Below are positions 43,211 through 54,033 of a stretch of 55,495 nt of DNA, in pieces. This DNA is from a virus. Location of the stretch: positions 1 to 55,495 of IMG/VR virus record IMGVR_UViG_3300009071_000002; one strand, written 5' to 3'. The position numbers and the translations under genes were made by a program. The notes under the pieces are model-generated. The model made no database searches and had not been told where the DNA came from. It saw only the letters and a list, made by a program, of their open reading frames with translations. Within the stretch, counting starts at the first letter, position 1. Every line of letters begins with the position of its first letter.

Positions 43211-43445
43211 TCTTTCTCATTTCTTTAAAATTATCCTTCAACTTGAGGAGCATTTCCAGTAAACCCGCTTTCCCCTGCAGTCGGTACACTTCCAGTTCCG
43301 ATGGTGCTACCACCAGTGCCGCTAGGGTCTGCTTGTGGAGGTTGTTGAGGTACTCCTCCAACACCTGCCATTCCAGCTTGTCTTGGCTGAGGAGCGGAGT
43401 TAGGGCCTTGAGGGGCTCCTTCCGGTTGTTCTGGTTGTTGGGCAT
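43200..43445 (-). CDS. Overprinted gene inside the portal 3' end
   Basis: An 81-residue frame, shifted against the portal and overlapping its last 215 bases. The protein looks folded: helical, with normal hydrophobic spacing (LEWQVLEEYLNNLHKQTLAA; ELEVYRLQGKAGLLEMLLKL). The portal in the same bases is a Gln/Pro/Gly low-complexity tail. AAAGGATTACAAG gives ATG 43445 a proper ribosome site. The N-x-x-E-V-L-E-E-Y-L ... E-L ... Q-G-x-A-x-L-x-x-L pattern resembles small proteins that follow portal genes in other podoviruses. I judge it real. Confidence 0.75.
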   Translation of the reverse strand: MPNNQNNRKEPLKALTPLLSQDKLEWQVLEEYLNNLHKQTLAALVVAPSELEVYRLQGKAGLLEMLLKLKDNFKEMRKNVS

Positions 43446-45342
43446 CTTGTAATCCTTTAAGTATTTCAGCGTATATCTGTGCTTCGTTTACATCGTTTAC
43501 TAAGCTGTCAGGATCAATATCCTGTGATATAGCTAGTTCTTTTAACAGGTTTGGTATTTTAATAAATGGTGCAAGCATTGGATTTCCTACAGTTTGCAAC
43601 AATGCTGTTAATCTTTGTGAACGTACTTCTTTTTGCATTACAGAAGCAGCTCCTTTTGGTTTAATTTCAAGATCTCCTTCTATATCTGGGTTATCTTCAT
43701 TAAACTGCATGTTCCATTGAAACAATGCCTCTCCTACAGGTTTAAGAAGATAATCATCTAAGTTTTTAATAACTGTTTTTATAGATAATCCTGAAGAGCC
43801 TAGCAACATAGATAAACCTGCAGCAGTTCTGCCTGTACCTGTTACACCAGTTTGACCATGCATAATGCTTGGTATGCCCGTTTCTTCATCAGCAAGTTGC
43901 CTTGCTTTGTCATACATTTGTATATTTTCACCAGCGGTGCTAGGAAATTTTATAGCGTTTACAGCAGTCCCAGTAACTCCTGACTGTCTTCTAAACACTT
44001 TTCCGGGAAAAATGTCGTAATTCTGTCCGGGTACAAGGGATGTTTCATCTACATCAAATACAAGGTTGCCAGCAAGTGCTAAATTATCTATAGCCATGCG
44101 TACATGCCCATTCATTAACATCTGTGCATCTTCCATGTTTTCTGGAATACCCACACCCCATATTTGATAGGGGTTTATTTCATATGGAAATATAGAATAG
44201 GGTAATCTAGCTGGCGTAAATGGATTTATACAAGCCCTTAATATTTGACCTCCTGAAATCCAAATGTTTACTTGAACTTCATCTAAATCATCCATGTCGG
44301 CAGCTTCTTCTAATCCTATTTGTTTAGCAAAAGTAGAATCTATTGTTCCCCAGTATTCTAACACTTCGTATCTTTCACTATCTACATATGGTTGAGTTTC
44401 GTCATCACGAATTGTATCTTCAAAATACTTTTCTTCGTAATTACCACCCCCAGCAATAACTTCTCTTATTGCTTCAGGATCAAACATAGGCATATTCATA
44501 AGATTACGTAATTGGGAACGATTCATTTTATGACGTTGTATAATGTACTCACAATCATCTACATTTGTTGCAGATGGATCGGAATATACATCCCAACAAC
44601 TGACAGCTTCTAGACGAGGAACTAATTTAGGATACGGAGTGTATGTTTTTGCACCCGACTCATCTTTTTCCCATTTATGAACAGTTTTACCAAAGTTAAA
44701 TGGTCCTTTAATTATTCCTGTACCCAATAGAGCAGATTCAAATATAGCATGACGTAAAACATTTACAGCATTAGTATCTGTAAGCTGATCATGCATAACT
44801 TTTTCCATACGCAAAGCTGCTTTTTTAGCTGGAGATATTTGGGGTTCTCCCATCCTTGAAGGACCTTCTGCTAAAGGAGCGTCTGCCCCATATTTGTTAG
44901 CTAATGATCCTAAAAAATCTAAATCAGCAGTTGCTTCTGTTGCTCCCGGATTTAATTGTTTTCCGTCACCTTCAAAACCATATGGACTAGATGATATTTC
45001 ATCAGCTGGTGTTTTAAGGTGAGCAAATTCTGCAATTCCTTCTGGTACAGGAGTAGACTCTACAGTAATTGGAAATTTTTTATTAGCAAATAAAATATCT
45101 ACAATTTGACCATAAGCAGCAAGCACTTTAGTTTTAGTTATTTTTATAAATACCTTAGATTTTTCAGTACTTGTGTACTGTGTAGTAGAATCATAAATAC
45201 CCCTAAAATTTTTATACGCTTTTAACCAGCGTTGTTCATGGGTTTGTCTACCGTCTTCGGCTGCTCTCATACGTTCTTGAATTAAACCTATAAGTCCAGA
45301 GCCTTCAGCTAAGGCTTCTTTTGCATCAATTGGATCAGACAT
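43231..45342 (-). CDS. Portal protein
   Basis: A 703-residue podovirus portal of the marine type. Key segments: RWLKAYKNFRGIYDST, EKSKVFIKITKTKVLAAYGQ, the wing region around CWDVYSDPSATNVDDCEYII, the crown-side PYSIFPYEINPYQIWGVGIP, and GQTGVTGTGRTAAGLSMLLG. It forms the 12-fold ring through which DNA is packaged and to which the adaptor binds. The last 70 residues are a Pro/Gln/Gly tail that doubles as coding sequence for gene 43200-43445. AAGGAACAGT precedes ATG 45342. Confidence 0.9.
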   Translation of the reverse strand: MSDPIDAKEALAEGSGLIGLIQERMRAAEDGRQTHEQRWLKAYKNFRGIYDSTTQYTSTEKSKVFIKITKTKVLAAYGQIVDILFANKKFPITVESTPVPEGIAEFAHLKTPADEISSSPYGFEGDGKQLNPGATEATADLDFLGSLANKYGADAPLAEGPSRMGEPQISPAKKAALRMEKVMHDQLTDTNAVNVLRHAIFESALLGTGIIKGPFNFGKTVHKWEKDESGAKTYTPYPKLVPRLEAVSCWDVYSDPSATNVDDCEYIIQRHKMNRSQLRNLMNMPMFDPEAIREVIAGGGNYEEKYFEDTIRDDETQPYVDSERYEVLEYWGTIDSTFAKQIGLEEAADMDDLDEVQVNIWISGGQILRACINPFTPARLPYSIFPYEINPYQIWGVGIPENMEDAQMLMNGHVRMAIDNLALAGNLVFDVDETSLVPGQNYDIFPGKVFRRQSGVTGTAVNAIKFPSTAGENIQMYDKARQLADEETGIPSIMHGQTGVTGTGRTAAGLSMLLGSSGLSIKTVIKNLDDYLLKPVGEALFQWNMQFNEDNPDIEGDLEIKPKGAASVMQKEVRSQRLTALLQTVGNPMLAPFIKIPNLLKELAISQDIDPDSLVNDVNEAQIYAEILKGLQDAQQPEQPEGAPQGPNSAPQPRQAGMAGVGGVPQQPPQADPSGTGGSTIGTGSVPTAGESGFTGNAPQVEG

Positions 45343-45630: not shown

Positions 45631-47721
45631 TTAAAATACTTCTTGTTTTTGTTCATCTAGATATATCAATTTACGACTATCTAAAATTTCTTTATCTTTA
45701 TCAGATAAAAAAGAACCTTCTGATTGTCTTAATTCTGCTACGTTTTCTTCTGTACTTGCAGGTTCCATCATAAGATTAGACCTAATTGTAATGTCTTTTT
45801 CTTCTGCAGATTTTAAATTTTTAGCCCGTTCTCCTGTATAATAATTTTCCGGAACTTCATTTGGAAATATTGCAAATTGAGCAAGTTGTTCTTCTACTGC
45901 TCTGTCTCCTTGTACTGCATATCTAATAGGTTCAAGAAGACCCATATATGGAAGTGCCTTTAGTCCTGCTTTTCCTATACCGTTTCTCCAAGCTTTTAAT
46001 CTTTGTTGAAATGTTCTTGGAGTTTCTTCGTTCATTCGCACAGGCCTACTGTCTTCTAACCTATTTTGTTCATCCATAATTTCTTCATCAGTTAAATTAG
46101 TACCTCTAATTGCATCTCTACTATCTTGGGCTTTTGCTCCCCTTTCCGCATCTATATTAAATTTACGTTCTGTTTTTCTTTTAATTTTTTCTTCTTCAAG
46201 AAATTTTTCGTTATTTGATATATCCTCTAAAGTTTCTTGATTTAATTTTGAAGCTTCAGCAAATCTTTTACGAGAATTAAGAAGAGCTTCCGACACTGCA
46301 TCATCAATATAGGCAGCATTGTTAGCATCTAAAGTGTGTAATCTACTGCTATTAGAATTTAAATTTTTAGCAAAATTAGTTTCGTGACTTTGCTCCCAAT
46401 CTATTAATGCAGCTTTTGGCATCCAACCCATAGCGTAAGTATGACGTAAAATTGCATCTTTTGCAGGTATTGCTGTATTATGTTTTACTTTAATTTCTGT
46501 TTCTGGTATAAGTATTTTACCACCAGTATTTTTGTACTCATTAATAACTCCATCTTTAGATAGTAAACTTTCTACAGAATTATAACCAGAGTAAGCAGTG
46601 TATTGATTATCTAAAATATCCATACCCGGAGTTATTATAGTTCTTAAAGCACCTTCAGTACTCATATATTTTATCATGGATACTGGAAGTTTTATACCAT
46701 GTGTTAAATTTTGATTATTAATAGCATTTTGAGTTATATAAAAAGGGTCTCCTTGTGGTAAATCTCCTCGTGCAAAAAGTGCACCAGATCTATCTTTAGC
46801 TAAATTTCTTATAAAAATTCTTGTTGGATTTTTTGTTTCATATTCTCCTAATCTTTCATTAAATACTTTAAATACTTTAGATGCATCTGTATTGTCAGGA
46901 ACATATGTATTTTTTAAATTATCTACTATTTCTTTATTTATTACAGCAGCATTTGGAAAAAGTTCTTTTCTACCATCTAATAGAGCTAACTGTCTGGCTC
47001 TTAAAACATAGTATCTTTCTAAATCTGTAAAATACGATAATCTACCTTTAGCAACATTTGCTTTTAAATTTTTAACTGCATCACCGCTATTATCTAATGT
47101 AGGATTATTTACATCATCAAAACTATCTACAGTTAACCTACTAAATTCAGCCGCTCTATCTCCTGTTAAAAATAGTAACCTAGCAGTAATTCTATCAATA
47201 CTACCTTTTGGATAAGTTTCTATATGGCGAGTTGTTGTAGCATATATATCATCTGGTATACTTGTAGGAACAACTCTGTCACCTTGACCACCAATCTTTA
47301 CGGCATAGCTACTATCTCCCGCAGATAATCTACTCATAGGTTTAACATCTGTATATTTTTCAAAAGTTGGGTCCATATAACCTTTTAATATTTTAGGACT
47401 ACCAAGTTTTTTATCTAATATATATTTTTGATTACTTAACTTTACATAATCTTTTGGAGACATATTAGCTATACGCATATCATTGTCAGGAAAACTATGA
47501 TTTCTATATTTTATCATAGTTGTAATCATTGCACTAACATCTGCTTTATTTAAACCTTTAGCAGCATTTACAGTGCCAGACTCTAAACTTTTTAATATTT
47601 TACTTTTCATATCAGCGGGTATAGAAGTATTCTGCATAAATGCTTCATAAGATTTTGCAGTCATTCCCGGTTGGGTTGTAAGCCTCTCAATAAAAAGATC
47701 TTCTACGGTAATATCAGCCAT
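45631..47721 (-). CDS. Large protein with tyrosine-recombinase-like domain
   Basis: A 696-residue protein between TerL and portal. Residues 174-200 (IDRITARLLFLTGDRAAEFS) match the Arg-I box of tyrosine recombinases, with R189; ALLDGRKELFPN (about 246-257) suits the later core; and 423-430 (AILRHTYA) matches the H-x-L-R-H-T box, R426, with the first His replaced by Ala. No Tyr stands about 32 residues on, where the nucleophile should be, so recombinase activity is doubtful. The rest is charged and helical. It may be a virion or packaging protein built on that fold. The start overlaps the TerL stop by one base. Confidence 0.6.
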   Translation of the reverse strand: MADITVEDLFIERLTTQPGMTAKSYEAFMQNTSIPADMKSKILKSLESGTVNAAKGLNKADVSAMITTMIKYRNHSFPDNDMRIANMSPKDYVKLSNQKYILDKKLGSPKILKGYMDPTFEKYTDVKPMSRLSAGDSSYAVKIGGQGDRVVPTSIPDDIYATTTRHIETYPKGSIDRITARLLFLTGDRAAEFSRLTVDSFDDVNNPTLDNSGDAVKNLKANVAKGRLSYFTDLERYYVLRARQLALLDGRKELFPNAAVINKEIVDNLKNTYVPDNTDASKVFKVFNERLGEYETKNPTRIFIRNLAKDRSGALFARGDLPQGDPFYITQNAINNQNLTHGIKLPVSMIKYMSTEGALRTIITPGMDILDNQYTAYSGYNSVESLLSKDGVINEYKNTGGKILIPETEIKVKHNTAIPAKDAILRHTYAMGWMPKAALIDWEQSHETNFAKNLNSNSSRLHTLDANNAAYIDDAVSEALLNSRKRFAEASKLNQETLEDISNNEKFLEEEKIKRKTERKFNIDAERGAKAQDSRDAIRGTNLTDEEIMDEQNRLEDSRPVRMNEETPRTFQQRLKAWRNGIGKAGLKALPYMGLLEPIRYAVQGDRAVEEQLAQFAIFPNEVPENYYTGERAKNLKSAEEKDITIRSNLMMEPASTEENVAELRQSEGSFLSDKDKEILDSRKLIYLDEQKQEVF

Positions 47722-49343
47722 CAGTATCCAAATACCTCATTTTCCGGCACATATCGTTGCATCTGCCTACTAGAATAGTACGGTGTGCTTGCATTGTGCA
47801 AAGATCGCACCATCATCATATATCGTAACGCATCGTATGCGTGGTCGTCTGCTTTTGTGTCTACATCCTCTGGGTTGTGCTTAGATAGAGGCAATGTAGG
47901 GAGTGTTCTTACTAAATTTGTACAATTGTCCATAATTCTTACTCTTGGTTGTCCTCTGCTGTCACAAGCTAGTCTTCTATGTATTTCTATCTTTCCTGCT
48001 AGTCTGTTTCTGTCGGATGGTATCCATCTACAGCCTTTTCTATTCATTGTTTCTGCTATACTTGGACCTAGCCCTGTTCTGTTCCAACAACTGGCATCTA
48101 ATACAGATATTTGCATGGTTGGGTCGTTTCTTTCTAACTCTAAGATTAGTTCACCAAGAGCTTCGCCGGTTCTACCCTTTATATACAGCTCTCTATATAT
48201 CCAGATATTGTTATCCCAGTCTATAGCACCCCAAAGAATACAAGAAGGACTACTGTAGCCATAATCTCCGGCACGTACCCTAGCCCAACCATCAGGTGGG
48301 TCAAAGGATTCCACGACATGTAGCGATCTACTAAATTCTGTAAAAGCTGCTCCCTCTGCGACATCCCAGTCTCCTTCTAATAATCGTTTTCGTTCTACTT
48401 CTGGTAAGGAGAGCAACATAGCTTCGTATTGCCCATCTATAGCAAGATACGGATTGTCTGTCAACCTTGCTGGTATAAATTTTTTTAGAAATAAAGGTTG
48501 CCCTTCTTTTGTATGTCCTGCAGGATACCTTATTGTTTTCTGTGTGTCAAACTCTTTTGCCCAAAATGCTGATCCGGGTGGGGATGGGTCTATGTACATC
48601 TTCTTTACCCACCAACCTCCTACTCCACCGGGGTTAGCTGTGCACCTCATGTAGAGACCAAGCTGTGGATCGGTACTTCTAAGTCTAGATCTTAGGTAGT
48701 TCCACACGTATGGAGTAGGATACTGTGTTATTTCGTCTATTCCTATCCAATTAAACGCTTGTCCTTGGTATCTTGTTACGTCTCTGTCGTCATCTACGTA
48801 GGAAAACCATATTTTAGCCCCAGAAGGAAACTCCCATGTAGACTTTGCTTGCTTAAACACTGCCCCCGGCACTGCTTTCATGTACAATTGCCTACTTTTG
48901 TCTATAAGTTCGGTCAATTCTGGTAGAGTACGTCTTAGTAGTAGGCCTCTGTGGTTAGGGTTACCTACATCTCTTAAAACATCAGCAAGAAGTGCATATG
49001 ATTTGCCTCCTCCAGCTGCTCCCCCGTACAATACGTCTCTTTCTGGGCTTTCTAAGAACTCTGCCTGTGGTCCATCGTTAGATTTAAAGACAACTTCGTT
49101 CTCAGCAACGTGGTTTCGTACTTTTTCTGGTAAAGCTAGTAGTTCTTCCTCAGATATAGGTTCTTTTCCATGTCCTGAGAGAGCTGCGTCTATCTTACCA
49201 AGGCTTTCTTGTAGTTTATTTGCCCTGTACCGTGCATTTACGGCACGTTTTGATTCTTTTTTTGCTTTTGCTTTAGCGTTAGATAGTTTTGTTGATACGG
49301 ACTTGCGTATCGCTTTCCTATCCAGTTTGGCTTTCGCTGCCAT
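47721..49343 (-). CDS. Terminase large subunit
   Basis: A 540-residue packaging motor. A basic helical extension precedes the ATPase: Walker A GGAAGGGKS (about 107-115), the arginine-rich LLLRRTLPEL, Walker B FNWIGIDEIT, and coupling motif CTANPGG. The nuclease half shows RAGDYGYSSPS, ISVLDASCWNR and DDHAYDALRYM, the three acidic clusters of the RNase H-like fold. It pumps DNA into the prohead through the portal. The ATG at 49343 lies in the end of the preceding gene, with AGGAAC 10 bases upstream. Confidence 0.95.
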   Translation of the reverse strand: MAAKAKLDRKAIRKSVSTKLSNAKAKAKKESKRAVNARYRANKLQESLGKIDAALSGHGKEPISEEELLALPEKVRNHVAENEVVFKSNDGPQAEFLESPERDVLYGGAAGGGKSYALLADVLRDVGNPNHRGLLLRRTLPELTELIDKSRQLYMKAVPGAVFKQAKSTWEFPSGAKIWFSYVDDDRDVTRYQGQAFNWIGIDEITQYPTPYVWNYLRSRLRSTDPQLGLYMRCTANPGGVGGWWVKKMYIDPSPPGSAFWAKEFDTQKTIRYPAGHTKEGQPLFLKKFIPARLTDNPYLAIDGQYEAMLLSLPEVERKRLLEGDWDVAEGAAFTEFSRSLHVVESFDPPDGWARVRAGDYGYSSPSCILWGAIDWDNNIWIYRELYIKGRTGEALGELILELERNDPTMQISVLDASCWNRTGLGPSIAETMNRKGCRWIPSDRNRLAGKIEIHRRLACDSRGQPRVRIMDNCTNLVRTLPTLPLSKHNPEDVDTKADDHAYDALRYMMMVRSLHNASTPYYSSRQMQRYVPENEVFGY

Positions 49344-52874: not shown

Positions 52875-53291
52875 CTAATCCTCACCGCTGTCAACCACCG
52901 TTGGCATTGCTGACTTGCTTGGCATAAGTACAATTCCGTGCAGTGCCTTTATGTCGTGCTCTTGTTTTTCTATTTTGCCCAGCCCTACTCTGTCTAATAG
53001 AGTTTGTGCTGCCTTTAGTCTAAGTTCTTGTCTAGGGTTTAGTCCGTCATCGTTCATGGACTCTACCACTCTTGATACGGCTGTCGCCGAATTAACGGCT
53101 AGTTCTCGTTTAGATATGTCTACGATTTCGTCTGCAAGGCTTTTAACCAACCATGTTCTAGAAGAAGGAGAGTAACCGGCTTCCTCACAGGCTAGGGCTA
53201 TGTCGCCTTTGTTTACGAAGAGACAGTTGAGAAACTTTTGTTGCTTCTCGGTAACTTCCTTTTTTTTCTCTGCTAAGAGTGCTGAAGTCAT
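52875..53291 (-). CDS. Small terminase-like protein
   Basis: A 138-residue helical protein. EVTEKQQKFLNCLFVNKGDI followed by ALACEEAGYSPSSRTWLVKS matches the N-terminal DNA-binding helix-turn-helix of TerS (PF03592 type: T-x-K-Q-x-x-F ... A-A-x-x-A-G-Y-S). The C-terminal half (RQELRLKAAQTLLDRVGLGK) suits oligomerisation. It probably recognises phage DNA for TerL, although TerL is four kilobases further on. The start overlaps the upstream stop (ATGA). Confidence 0.78.
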   Translation of the reverse strand: MTSALLAEKKKEVTEKQQKFLNCLFVNKGDIALACEEAGYSPSSRTWLVKSLADEIVDISKRELAVNSATAVSRVVESMNDDGLNPRQELRLKAAQTLLDRVGLGKIEKQEHDIKALHGIVLMPSKSAMPTVVDSGED

Positions 53292-53455
53292 CCGTACGTC
53301 TTGGCCTTTCTCATTCCGCCACCCATAGCGTACGTCTTCTTGTGGACCTTGCCACCACCCATCATCTTTTTCTTTTTAGAAATAACACCTTTACCCATAA
53401 GGATATCCTTCTGAGTAATTTTACCGTCACCGGATAGGTCTGGAAATTTAGCCAT
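53288..53455 (-). CDS. Small EF-hand-like protein with C-terminal tag
   Basis: A 55-residue protein. Residues 6-17 (DLSGDGKITQKD) form a canonical 12-residue EF-hand/dockerin calcium loop. It is followed by GKGVISKKKKMMGGGK and the tag KTYAMGGGMRKAKTYG, nearly identical to the end of the neighbouring 53448-53726 gene. The start lies inside that gene's final codons and the stop overlaps the next ATG. I associate the family with marine phages; its role is unknown. Confidence 0.75.
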   Translation of the reverse strand: MAKFPDLSGDGKITQKDILMGKGVISKKKKMMGGGKVHKKTYAMGGGMRKAKTYG

Positions 53456-53726
53456 ATGTTTTTGCCTTTCTTATACCACCACCCATAGCGTACGTTTTCA
53501 TTGCCTTGCCACCGTATGCCATCTTTTTCTTTTTAGCTCTGCCACCGTAGGCTTTGTTACCCGGCCCACGAGGTCCAGTTTTTCCTTTAAAGACAGCAAA
53601 GTTATTTATCAGTGCATTTGCAGCAGAATCACTCATTTTACTTAATTGGGTTTGACCAACGCCTGTTTTTTCAAGGGCTTTCATAGTGGCGGCTAAATCT
53701 ATATTGGCGGGTAATTTAAATTCCAC
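53448..53726 (-). CDS. Small basic protein with C-terminal tag
   Basis: A 92-residue protein: an N-terminal helical domain (EFKLPANIDLAATMKALEKT; QTQLSKMSDSAANALINNF), then basic Gly-rich repeats (AYGGRAKKKKMAYGGK) ending in KTYAMGGGIRKAKTYG. The start is GTG 53726 with GGAG 9 bases upstream, three bases after the PqqA-like gene. Probably a virion-associated or DNA-contacting protein; no family named. Confidence 0.7.
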   Translation of the reverse strand: MEFKLPANIDLAATMKALEKTGVGQTQLSKMSDSAANALINNFAVFKGKTGPRGPGNKAYGGRAKKKKMAYGGKAMKTYAMGGGIRKAKTYG

Positions 53727-53729
53727 CCT

Positions 53730-53804
53730 CTAGATCTCCGCACACGCATAACAATTAATTTCTAGTCCTACGGCTACTTCTATTATTCTTGGTGATTTCC
53801 ACAT
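53730..53804 (-). CDS. PqqA-like peptide
   Basis: A 24-residue frame starting MWKSPRIIEV and ending VGLEINCYACAEI. PqqA, the peptide from which the cofactor PQQ is made, has the same length class and plan: Trp and Pro near the start, then G-x-E-x-x-x-Y, whose Glu and Tyr are crosslinked by PqqE. Here W2, P5, G13, E15 and Y19 are in the same positions as in 23-residue bacterial PqqA. The ending recalls alphaproteobacterial PqqA (from memory, M. extorquens: VGMEVTSYESAEI). AAAGGATACATACC gives ATG 53804 a good ribosome site. It is the first gene after the late promoter. No other pqq gene is present. Confidence 0.75.
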   Translation of the reverse strand: MWKSPRIIEVAVGLEINCYACAEI

Positions 53805-53847
53805 GGTATGTATCCTTTTATATATATATTTATTTTGATTGGGTTGT

Positions 53848-53912
53848 CTTGGGGGATACGGAGCATAGATGCCCCCTCCGGAGATAGTATATTAATTGTG
53901 CTACCCCCCAAG
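53848..53912 (-). promoter_or_regulatory. Structured element in the late leader
   Basis: CTTGGGGG (53848-53855) pairs perfectly with CCCCCAAG (53905-53912); inside, CGGAG (53859-53863) pairs with CTCCG (53876-53880). A second stem, CCCCC (53942-53946) with GGGGG (53970-53974), lies closer to the promoter. These lie in the roughly 195-base leader between the late promoter and the PqqA-like gene. There is no T-run after them. A control or stability role is likely; I do not recognise a known riboswitch. Confidence 0.5.
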
Positions 53913-54005
53913 GACTTAAAATTATGTAACACAAACCGTGACCCCCTTGTGTATATATTTTGTTCTTGTGGGGGCGTGAGTGTACTTGTATTACATGTAC
54001 CTACC

Positions 54006-54033
54006 ATTATACACCGTATATAGAAACTGTCAA
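54006..54033 (-). promoter_or_regulatory. Late-arm sigma70 promoter
   Basis: Read leftward: TTGACA (54033-54028), 16 bases ending ATACGGTG, TATAAT (54011-54006). Both hexamers are perfect consensus. It faces the whole late arm and is the strongest promoter I see in the genome. The spacer end and -10 (ATACGGTGTATA) form a 12-base inverted repeat with the promoter at 54071-54098. Confidence 0.8.

Follow-up and report, generated by a model that had tools for sequence, protein, structure and literature searches.

To our knowledge, the product of a familiar phage auxiliary metabolic gene is an enzyme or an electron carrier. The locus described here carries a gene of only 24 codons resembling pqqA, which encodes the raw material of a cofactor that the host must finish. 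Is this an authentic PqqA, and what would a phage gain from making it? The stretch of DNA analysed is an entire IMG/VR virus record of 55,495 bases (hereafter the window). Its large terminase subunit (47721..49343, (-) strand; phrog_979, E = 1.7e-60) and its portal/head-tail adaptor (43231..45342, (-) strand; phrog_332, E = 6.7e-77) are at most 57% and 52% identical, respectively, to those of HMO-2011-like podoviruses, such as HMO-2011, CRP-207, HTVC033P and HTVC115P, whose named records span 53-55 kb. By these similarities we classify the phage as an HMO-2011-like podovirus; the label 'marine' for its group comes from the named relatives and from host genome titles. The window also encodes a primase, a DnaB-type helicase, a family A DNA polymerase, endonuclease I and a B12-dependent ribonucleotide reductase.

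The gene at 53730-53804 on the (-) strand comprises 24 codons and a stop, with the start codon context AAAAGGATACATACC-ATG. Its translation, MWKSPRIIEVAVGLEINCYACAEI, has W2, P5, G13, E15, C18, Y19 and C21 exactly where the original prediction had placed them. PqqA is a peptide of about 20-30 residues with a W-x-x-P motif close to its start, and the window peptide shows both traits, as do the host copies described below; it also contains the Glu-x-x-x-Tyr stretch (E15/Y19) that becomes PQQ and that is kept in relatives. Curated models agree on its identity. TIGR02107 scores 28.7 bits (cut-off 20, E = 8.6e-7), and PF08042, the search proposed in the original prediction, scores 24.6 bits against a cut-off of 21.1 (E = 2.6e-5); searching the whole record in six frames gave no PF08042 match other than this gene (E = 1.8e-5). 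The gene is PqqA by these models, and this identity is directly supported. A tblastn search of 50,697 phage records with the peptide gave no match even at E 10, which we do not take as absence because a query of 24 residues is too short.

No pqqB-E genes adjoin the window gene; such linkage is not decisive, because bacteria carry unlinked copies and the curated models require none. Among the 50 window ORFs scanned, PqqA is the only match to a PQQ family, with neither PqqB-E nor any other maturase, and six-frame searches of the record found no PqqE and no PQQ alcohol dehydrogenase. The expected lack of PQQ synthesis genes is thus borne out, so enzymes of the host would be needed. The window gene also has the marks of an auxiliary gene, being a host-type pqqA in a genome that its terminase, portal, DNA polymerase and helicase genes show to be truly a phage's, and accessory, as it occurs in only part of the phage group.

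The gene had been proposed to stand first after the strongest promoter and to head the late operon. The first statement held: a TTGACA-16-TATAAT site (54006..54033, (-) strand) agrees with the sigma-70 consensus at 12 of 12 positions, is the best of 13 sites between 52000 and 55495, lies in a region that aligns in relatives, and is presumed to drive the operon, in which pqqA, about 200 bases below, is the first ORF taken as a gene. Genes leading to the terminase begin within a few bases 3' of pqqA. Directly behind it is a Gly/Lys/Tyr-rich ORF of 92 residues (53448..53726, (-) strand; start listed as GTG) with no family match in profile searches, followed by an ORF of 55 residues without a PHROG match (53288..53455, (-) strand) and by a putative small terminase subunit (52875..53291, (-) strand) with weak PHROG matches (best E 0.00058). 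The 55-residue ORF has a C-terminal repeat, MGGGMRKAKTYG, resembling that of its 92-residue neighbour; the two adjacent ORFs have near-identical Gly/Lys/Tyr-rich ends (MGGGMRKAKTYG and MGGGIRKAKTYG). The second statement stands only for the window and its near relatives. Where the terminase is 73-76% identical, several relatives have pqqA directly behind the small terminase gene, and we rejected a general operon-head role.

Between the promoter and pqqA, at the start of the late operon, lies a putative structured RNA leader (53829..53919, (-) strand) with an outer stem, an inner hairpin, compensatory changes and an invariant CTATCTCCGGAGG. Among nine distinct sequences, 17 cells were changed on both sides, compared with 5.7 in shuffles that ignore relatedness, and none of 500 shuffles reached this value; on another measure, further pair types, 39 of 500 equalled the real alignment. 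The structure was drawn from the window together with its relatives, of which L021 and L025 align poorly in the outer stem. The leader has no match in Rfam. A complete listing of the motif AATNAATRTNCTATCTCCGGAGG in the viral collection gives 34 matches, with the pqqA start 49-77 bases downstream in every one, and a looser motif adds two matches (L401, L402) that have no pqqA and look like chance. A covariance model of the leader gave no match in the 81 other loci searched; when 16 genomes or records were scanned, it was strong only in the four of the window's group (best other E 0.10). With pqqA as the first gene in this group, its association with the leader may be incidental. The spacing of 49-77 bases behind a covarying element in near relatives could also mean that pqqA serves as a short leader ORF which acts with the structured RNA, to which it is coupled, in controlling translation of the late operon, its PqqA resemblance being inherited and unused. 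We regard such cis regulation as very improbable, because conservation is of amino acids rather than bases, pqqA is placed elsewhere in other relatives and phage groups, and the RNA model matches nothing in those groups' loci searched.

The distribution of pqqA among relatives was followed through the large terminase, which served as the query, in the contigs it matched (the best 80 of at least 586 confirmed), divided into three identity classes, counting contigs with at least 700 bases before a match to the small terminase or the next gene. Within these best 80, pqqA is present in 11 of 11 relatives with a terminase at least 88% identical (including L010, where the contig end truncates the gene and a separate search identified it), in five of nine at 73-76%, and in none of the 16 at about 66% that have enough upstream sequence. 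Three contigs with less upstream room (L027, L030 and L032) also have pqqA, and L039 has none, though its contig covers the region behind the small terminase. The gene was likewise found in 0 of 12 named HMO-2011-like relatives, a set that held no positive, by a search that does match other viral records. The phage group can therefore do without pqqA, which is an accessory gene of movable position.

The two reacting residues are invariant in the relatives tested, as the original prediction had anticipated. A search pattern leaving the Glu and Tyr codons free matched at least 120 stretches, and all 119 that were mapped encode both residues. Similarly, the leader motif, which makes no use of pqqA, led to 34 contigs, many of them close relatives, all of which carry pqqA with the reactive Glu and Tyr. 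This conservation is directly supported, and it is unevenly spread along the peptide. Over 102 distinct coding sequences, pN/pS is 0.05 in the core (VG...AE; 0.024 in the window's group, range 0.024-0.053), a value that leans low because the sequences were found by a regular expression fixing most of the core; the free-codon pattern, the terminase relatives and the leader-motif contigs check conservation outside that expression. Silent changes are common in the core codons, and silent sites are strongly diverged. The N-terminal part has a pN/pS of 0.58 over the same sequences (range 0.46-1.15). This part is expected to matter for PqqD binding, and its weak constraint in the window's group (1.15) counts against a role in PQQ supply.

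These patterns bear on two alternative readings. Had pqqA been picked up lately from hosts as a passenger free of selection, a patchy distribution and peptides identical to host copies, both of which we find, would be expected. We give this reading almost no credence, since the low core pN/pS amid strongly diverged silent sites contradicts it, and the 11 near relatives with enough sequence, among the best 80 of at least 586, all retain the gene. Alternatively, the phage peptide could act as a decoy, tying up PqqD or PqqE so that PQQ synthesis in the host is blocked, for instance as a way of diverting electrons. Host enzymes are required and the peptide should bind PqqD or PqqE, as a decoy would. 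Yet the relatives tested keep E15 and Y19 without exception, although a decoy could do without one or both of the reacting residues; moreover, the strongest constraint falls on the part that becomes PQQ, and the sequences of some phage peptides are exactly those of host peptides. Given that the phage peptide retains the host's reacting residues and almost all of its C-terminal half, we consider a decoy improbable. Of the options set out in the original prediction, blocking host PQQ synthesis accordingly fits the retained core poorly, and feeding it appears to fit best.

The same type of peptide recurs well beyond the window's relatives. At least 131 viral loci on at least 126 contigs, five contigs having been entered twice, fall into 11 context groups, defined by single linkage over 5 kb on either side with one representative protein identified per gene family. 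The window's type (group 1) accounts for 34 loci on 29 contigs. In group 0, the 47 loci have pqqA behind a portal gene, followed by one small ORF and a GroES-like gene. A major head protein and a terminase unlike the window's (phrog_38) are encoded nearby, and the group's proteins have almost no similarity to those of the window. Group 2 is a mixture of 32 loci: 21 are T4-like, with representatives including a helicase loader, a single-strand binding protein, a late transcription regulator and an exonuclease; nine form a separate type that shares a ribonucleotide reductase with 54-86% identity to that of the window; and two are unplaced. One of the smaller groups has a T4-like baseplate hub, and another has a further terminase with an adaptor. 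By gene content, group 0, group 1 and the T4-like loci thus make at least three unrelated backbones that carry pqqA, a recurrence that indicates repeated capture and therefore argues for a benefit. In groups 0, 2 and 3, peptides of the INCYACAE and INSYACAE types both occur, as they do among bacteria, which suggests that pqqA has been replaced within phage groups to match the host. PqqE was found in none of 28 viral records, namely the window and 27 others with pqqA, many of them fragments. TIGR02107 matches 19 of 33 hand-chosen viral records, a set that includes chance matches to the pattern. The peptide of one record of 265 kb (L162), which we take to be Methylobacterium-like, was left out of the phage locus counts.

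Which bacteria have this type of PqqA? Among the matches listed in a pattern scan of species genomes, its carriers are for the most part Alphaproteobacteria, many with titles that point to a marine origin, including the single cells Rhodospirillaceae AG-430-C17 and AG-896-G13, MED-G10 HIMB59, MarineAlpha9 and 'Candidatus Pelagibacterales' SP94. We picked 30 genomes from the scan matches for tests of the PQQ pathway. TIGR02107 matches in all 30, at 60 places; PqqE scores above cut-off in 25 of the 30 and in none of 14 control genomes; and the PQQ alcohol dehydrogenase model does so in 21 of 27 bacterial genomes (L223, L284 and L268 being left out) and in none of the 14 controls. Sub-cut-off matches occur in the controls (14 of 14 for PqqE, 9 of 14 for the dehydrogenase), so only counts above the cut-off are used. 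The pathway and the dehydrogenases are therefore directly seen in bacteria with near-identical PqqA, and the enzymes that the original prediction called for exist in the candidate hosts, one of which has a pqqABCDE locus (L355) with B-E matched by NCBIfam equivalogs.

In 24 genomes pqqA lies within 5 kb of PqqE, and 15 of these also have unlinked copies, up to four per genome. Unlinked copies make up 33 of the 60 places; three are in contigs of metagenome-assembled genomes (MAGs) that we read as phage or mis-binned, and others, in draft genomes, were possibly split from pqqE by contig ends. Some lie near an AAA ATPase gene that looks MoxR-like by eye; in the G034 type, the neighbour is a LysR gene. 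G034 itself has a pqqA-B-C-D-E operon (B-E by NCBIfam equivalogs) with the peptide MWKSPVVREVAVGLEINCYACAEI and a second copy, MWKSPVVKEVAVGLEINCYACAEI, adjoining a LysR-type gene; the neighbours are the same at L253, whose peptide differs from MWKSPVVKEVAVGLEINCYACAEI by one residue, and at L374. MWKSPVVKEVAVGLEINCYACAEI is identical to the peptide of five phage loci (L016, L110, L136, L175 and L348), and a sixth (L132) equals the L253 copy exactly; for two phage peptides equal to host peptides, the best nucleotide identity is 0.89 and 0.85. Host copies of the MWKSPVVKEVAVGLEINCYACAEI type agree with the window peptide at 21/24 residues. This comparison left out L223 and L284 and included L268.

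By peptide type, we infer that the clade G034-G043 is the likeliest host group. The window terminase matched none of 28 genomes of the candidate host order, in a search that had no positive control. Three other candidates were rejected as hosts. The MAG contigs L223 (Maricaulis IN14) and L284 (Flavobacteriaceae SAT25) share many ORFs with the phage groups; these two MAGs contain sequence of pqqA phages belonging to groups 0 and 2, either mis-binned or infecting. L268 (Verrucomicrobia TMED40) has a HIMB59-type peptide in a MAG with no PqqE match. The genomes G048-G057 and G062 (for example L358-L366 and L370-L372) come from marine Alphaproteobacteria with small genomes, some of the HIMB59 type; they have between two and five copies of pqqA and, in most of them, a single pqqE above cut-off.

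Set beside bacterial PqqA (TIGR02107/PF08042; L355, L356 and L373, and the extra copies L227, L253 and L374), the phage peptide shares its length, W-x-x-P, G-x-E-x-x-x-Y and nearly the whole C-terminal half, including C18 and C21. It differs in that the gene sits in a packaging operon of a phage with no PqqB-E match, and three residues separate it from the nearest host copies. The two cysteines had been thought unusual for PqqA, but that view does not survive, as the operon-linked host peptides of L355, L356 and L373 carry both; C18 and C21 therefore need no special role, and we rejected them as a sign of new use. A related reading holds that PqqD/PqqE or another radical SAM enzyme turns the peptide into a different RiPP or a signal rather than PQQ, with Cys21 and Cys/Ser18 beside Tyr19 belonging to that product or binding metal. 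Host genomes do have pqqA copies away from pqqE, and Cys21 is invariant in the 102 distinct phage sequences, although the regular expression used demanded it. As operon-linked host PqqA carries the same cysteines and no other maturase appears among the 50 window ORFs scanned, we consider a different product unlikely.

We therefore return to the reading in which the phage peptide is authentic PqqA, made during infection and matured to PQQ by host enzymes, which we judge likely from sequence comparisons; through it, the phages probably top up the host's cofactor supply during infection. The biochemistry of PqqD and PqqE is established, and PqqA is consumed one for one in PQQ synthesis, so extra peptide would be the cheapest way to raise or sustain PQQ. 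The phage pqqA would be a substrate-only auxiliary metabolic gene, its peptide produced in infection from the operon leading into packaging and structural genes. Host PqqD would bind the peptide, host PqqE would crosslink Glu15 to Tyr19, and a host protease, PqqB and PqqC would complete the cofactor. Wherever these enzymes outlast falling host transcription, the added peptide could raise or sustain PQQ, and the host's PQQ-dependent alcohol (methanol-type) dehydrogenases would keep running, feeding electrons to respiration while virions are built. We infer the host identity, the timing of expression, the maturation and the benefit.

In the available portion of PMC9851590, PqqE makes the Glu-Tyr crosslink, a cell-free extract of G. 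oxydans is cited as converting 70-80% of added PqqA to PQQ, and one methylotroph has five pqqA copies; the host genomes of this group likewise often have more pqqA than pqqE copies. In Acetobacter, overexpression of pqqAB raised PQQ by 29% and that of the whole cluster eightfold, according to the part of PMC7936290 consulted. PqqA supply is thus not always limiting on that account, and the gain from the peptide alone may therefore be modest.

Virus-encoded PqqA has already been reported, in the excerpts available of PMC7678222 and PMC13188868, and further reports may exist. The former describes a Lake Baikal virus population, VP_266, a T4-like freshwater virus assigned to Methylophilaceae that carries PqqA and methanol dehydrogenase; as there described, its phage-borne PqqA is, like that of the window, proposed to help PQQ supply, whereas the window is an HMO-2011-like podovirus with an alphaproteobacterial type of PqqA and no PQQ alcohol dehydrogenase match. 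The latter lists viral pqqA, pqqE and pqqD among phosphorus-cycling auxiliary genes of reservoir sediments; pqqA is again on viral contigs, listed in the excerpt without its conservation, context or mechanism. A literature search joining HMO-2011 with pyrroloquinoline found nothing, and the part of PMC9004378 (Melnitz) seen names PQQ only as a medium component. As far as the literature was searched, the occurrence in an HMO-2011-like group, the alphaproteobacterial type, the covarying RNA leader and the recurrence in unrelated phages without PqqE are new.

On balance, we lean towards a wider view, in which a ribosomally made cofactor precursor serves as a viral auxiliary gene that supplies substrate only: several unrelated phage lineages may each have acquired pqqA without the other pqq genes, in a form matching the PqqA of their alphaproteobacterial hosts, and may thereby set PQQ supply and dehydrogenase-driven respiration in infection, which the new covarying leader at the transcript start may tune in the window's group. 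If so, phages would directly influence PQQ and PQQ-dependent alcohol oxidation in small-genome marine Alphaproteobacteria, and a gene of 24 codons would offer a simple test of phage effects on carbon oxidation.

The named HMO-2011-like records, while lacking PqqA, differ from the window also in carrying other accessory genes above the terminase. In the corresponding block, HMO-2011 has a methanesulfonate monooxygenase gene (L210, 3285-4367), so this slot may serve host-specific metabolic genes, and it is perhaps shared by redox-related accessory genes; in ctYwJ313 (L211, 3176-3565), the block above the terminase holds a gene for a high-potential iron-sulfur protein.
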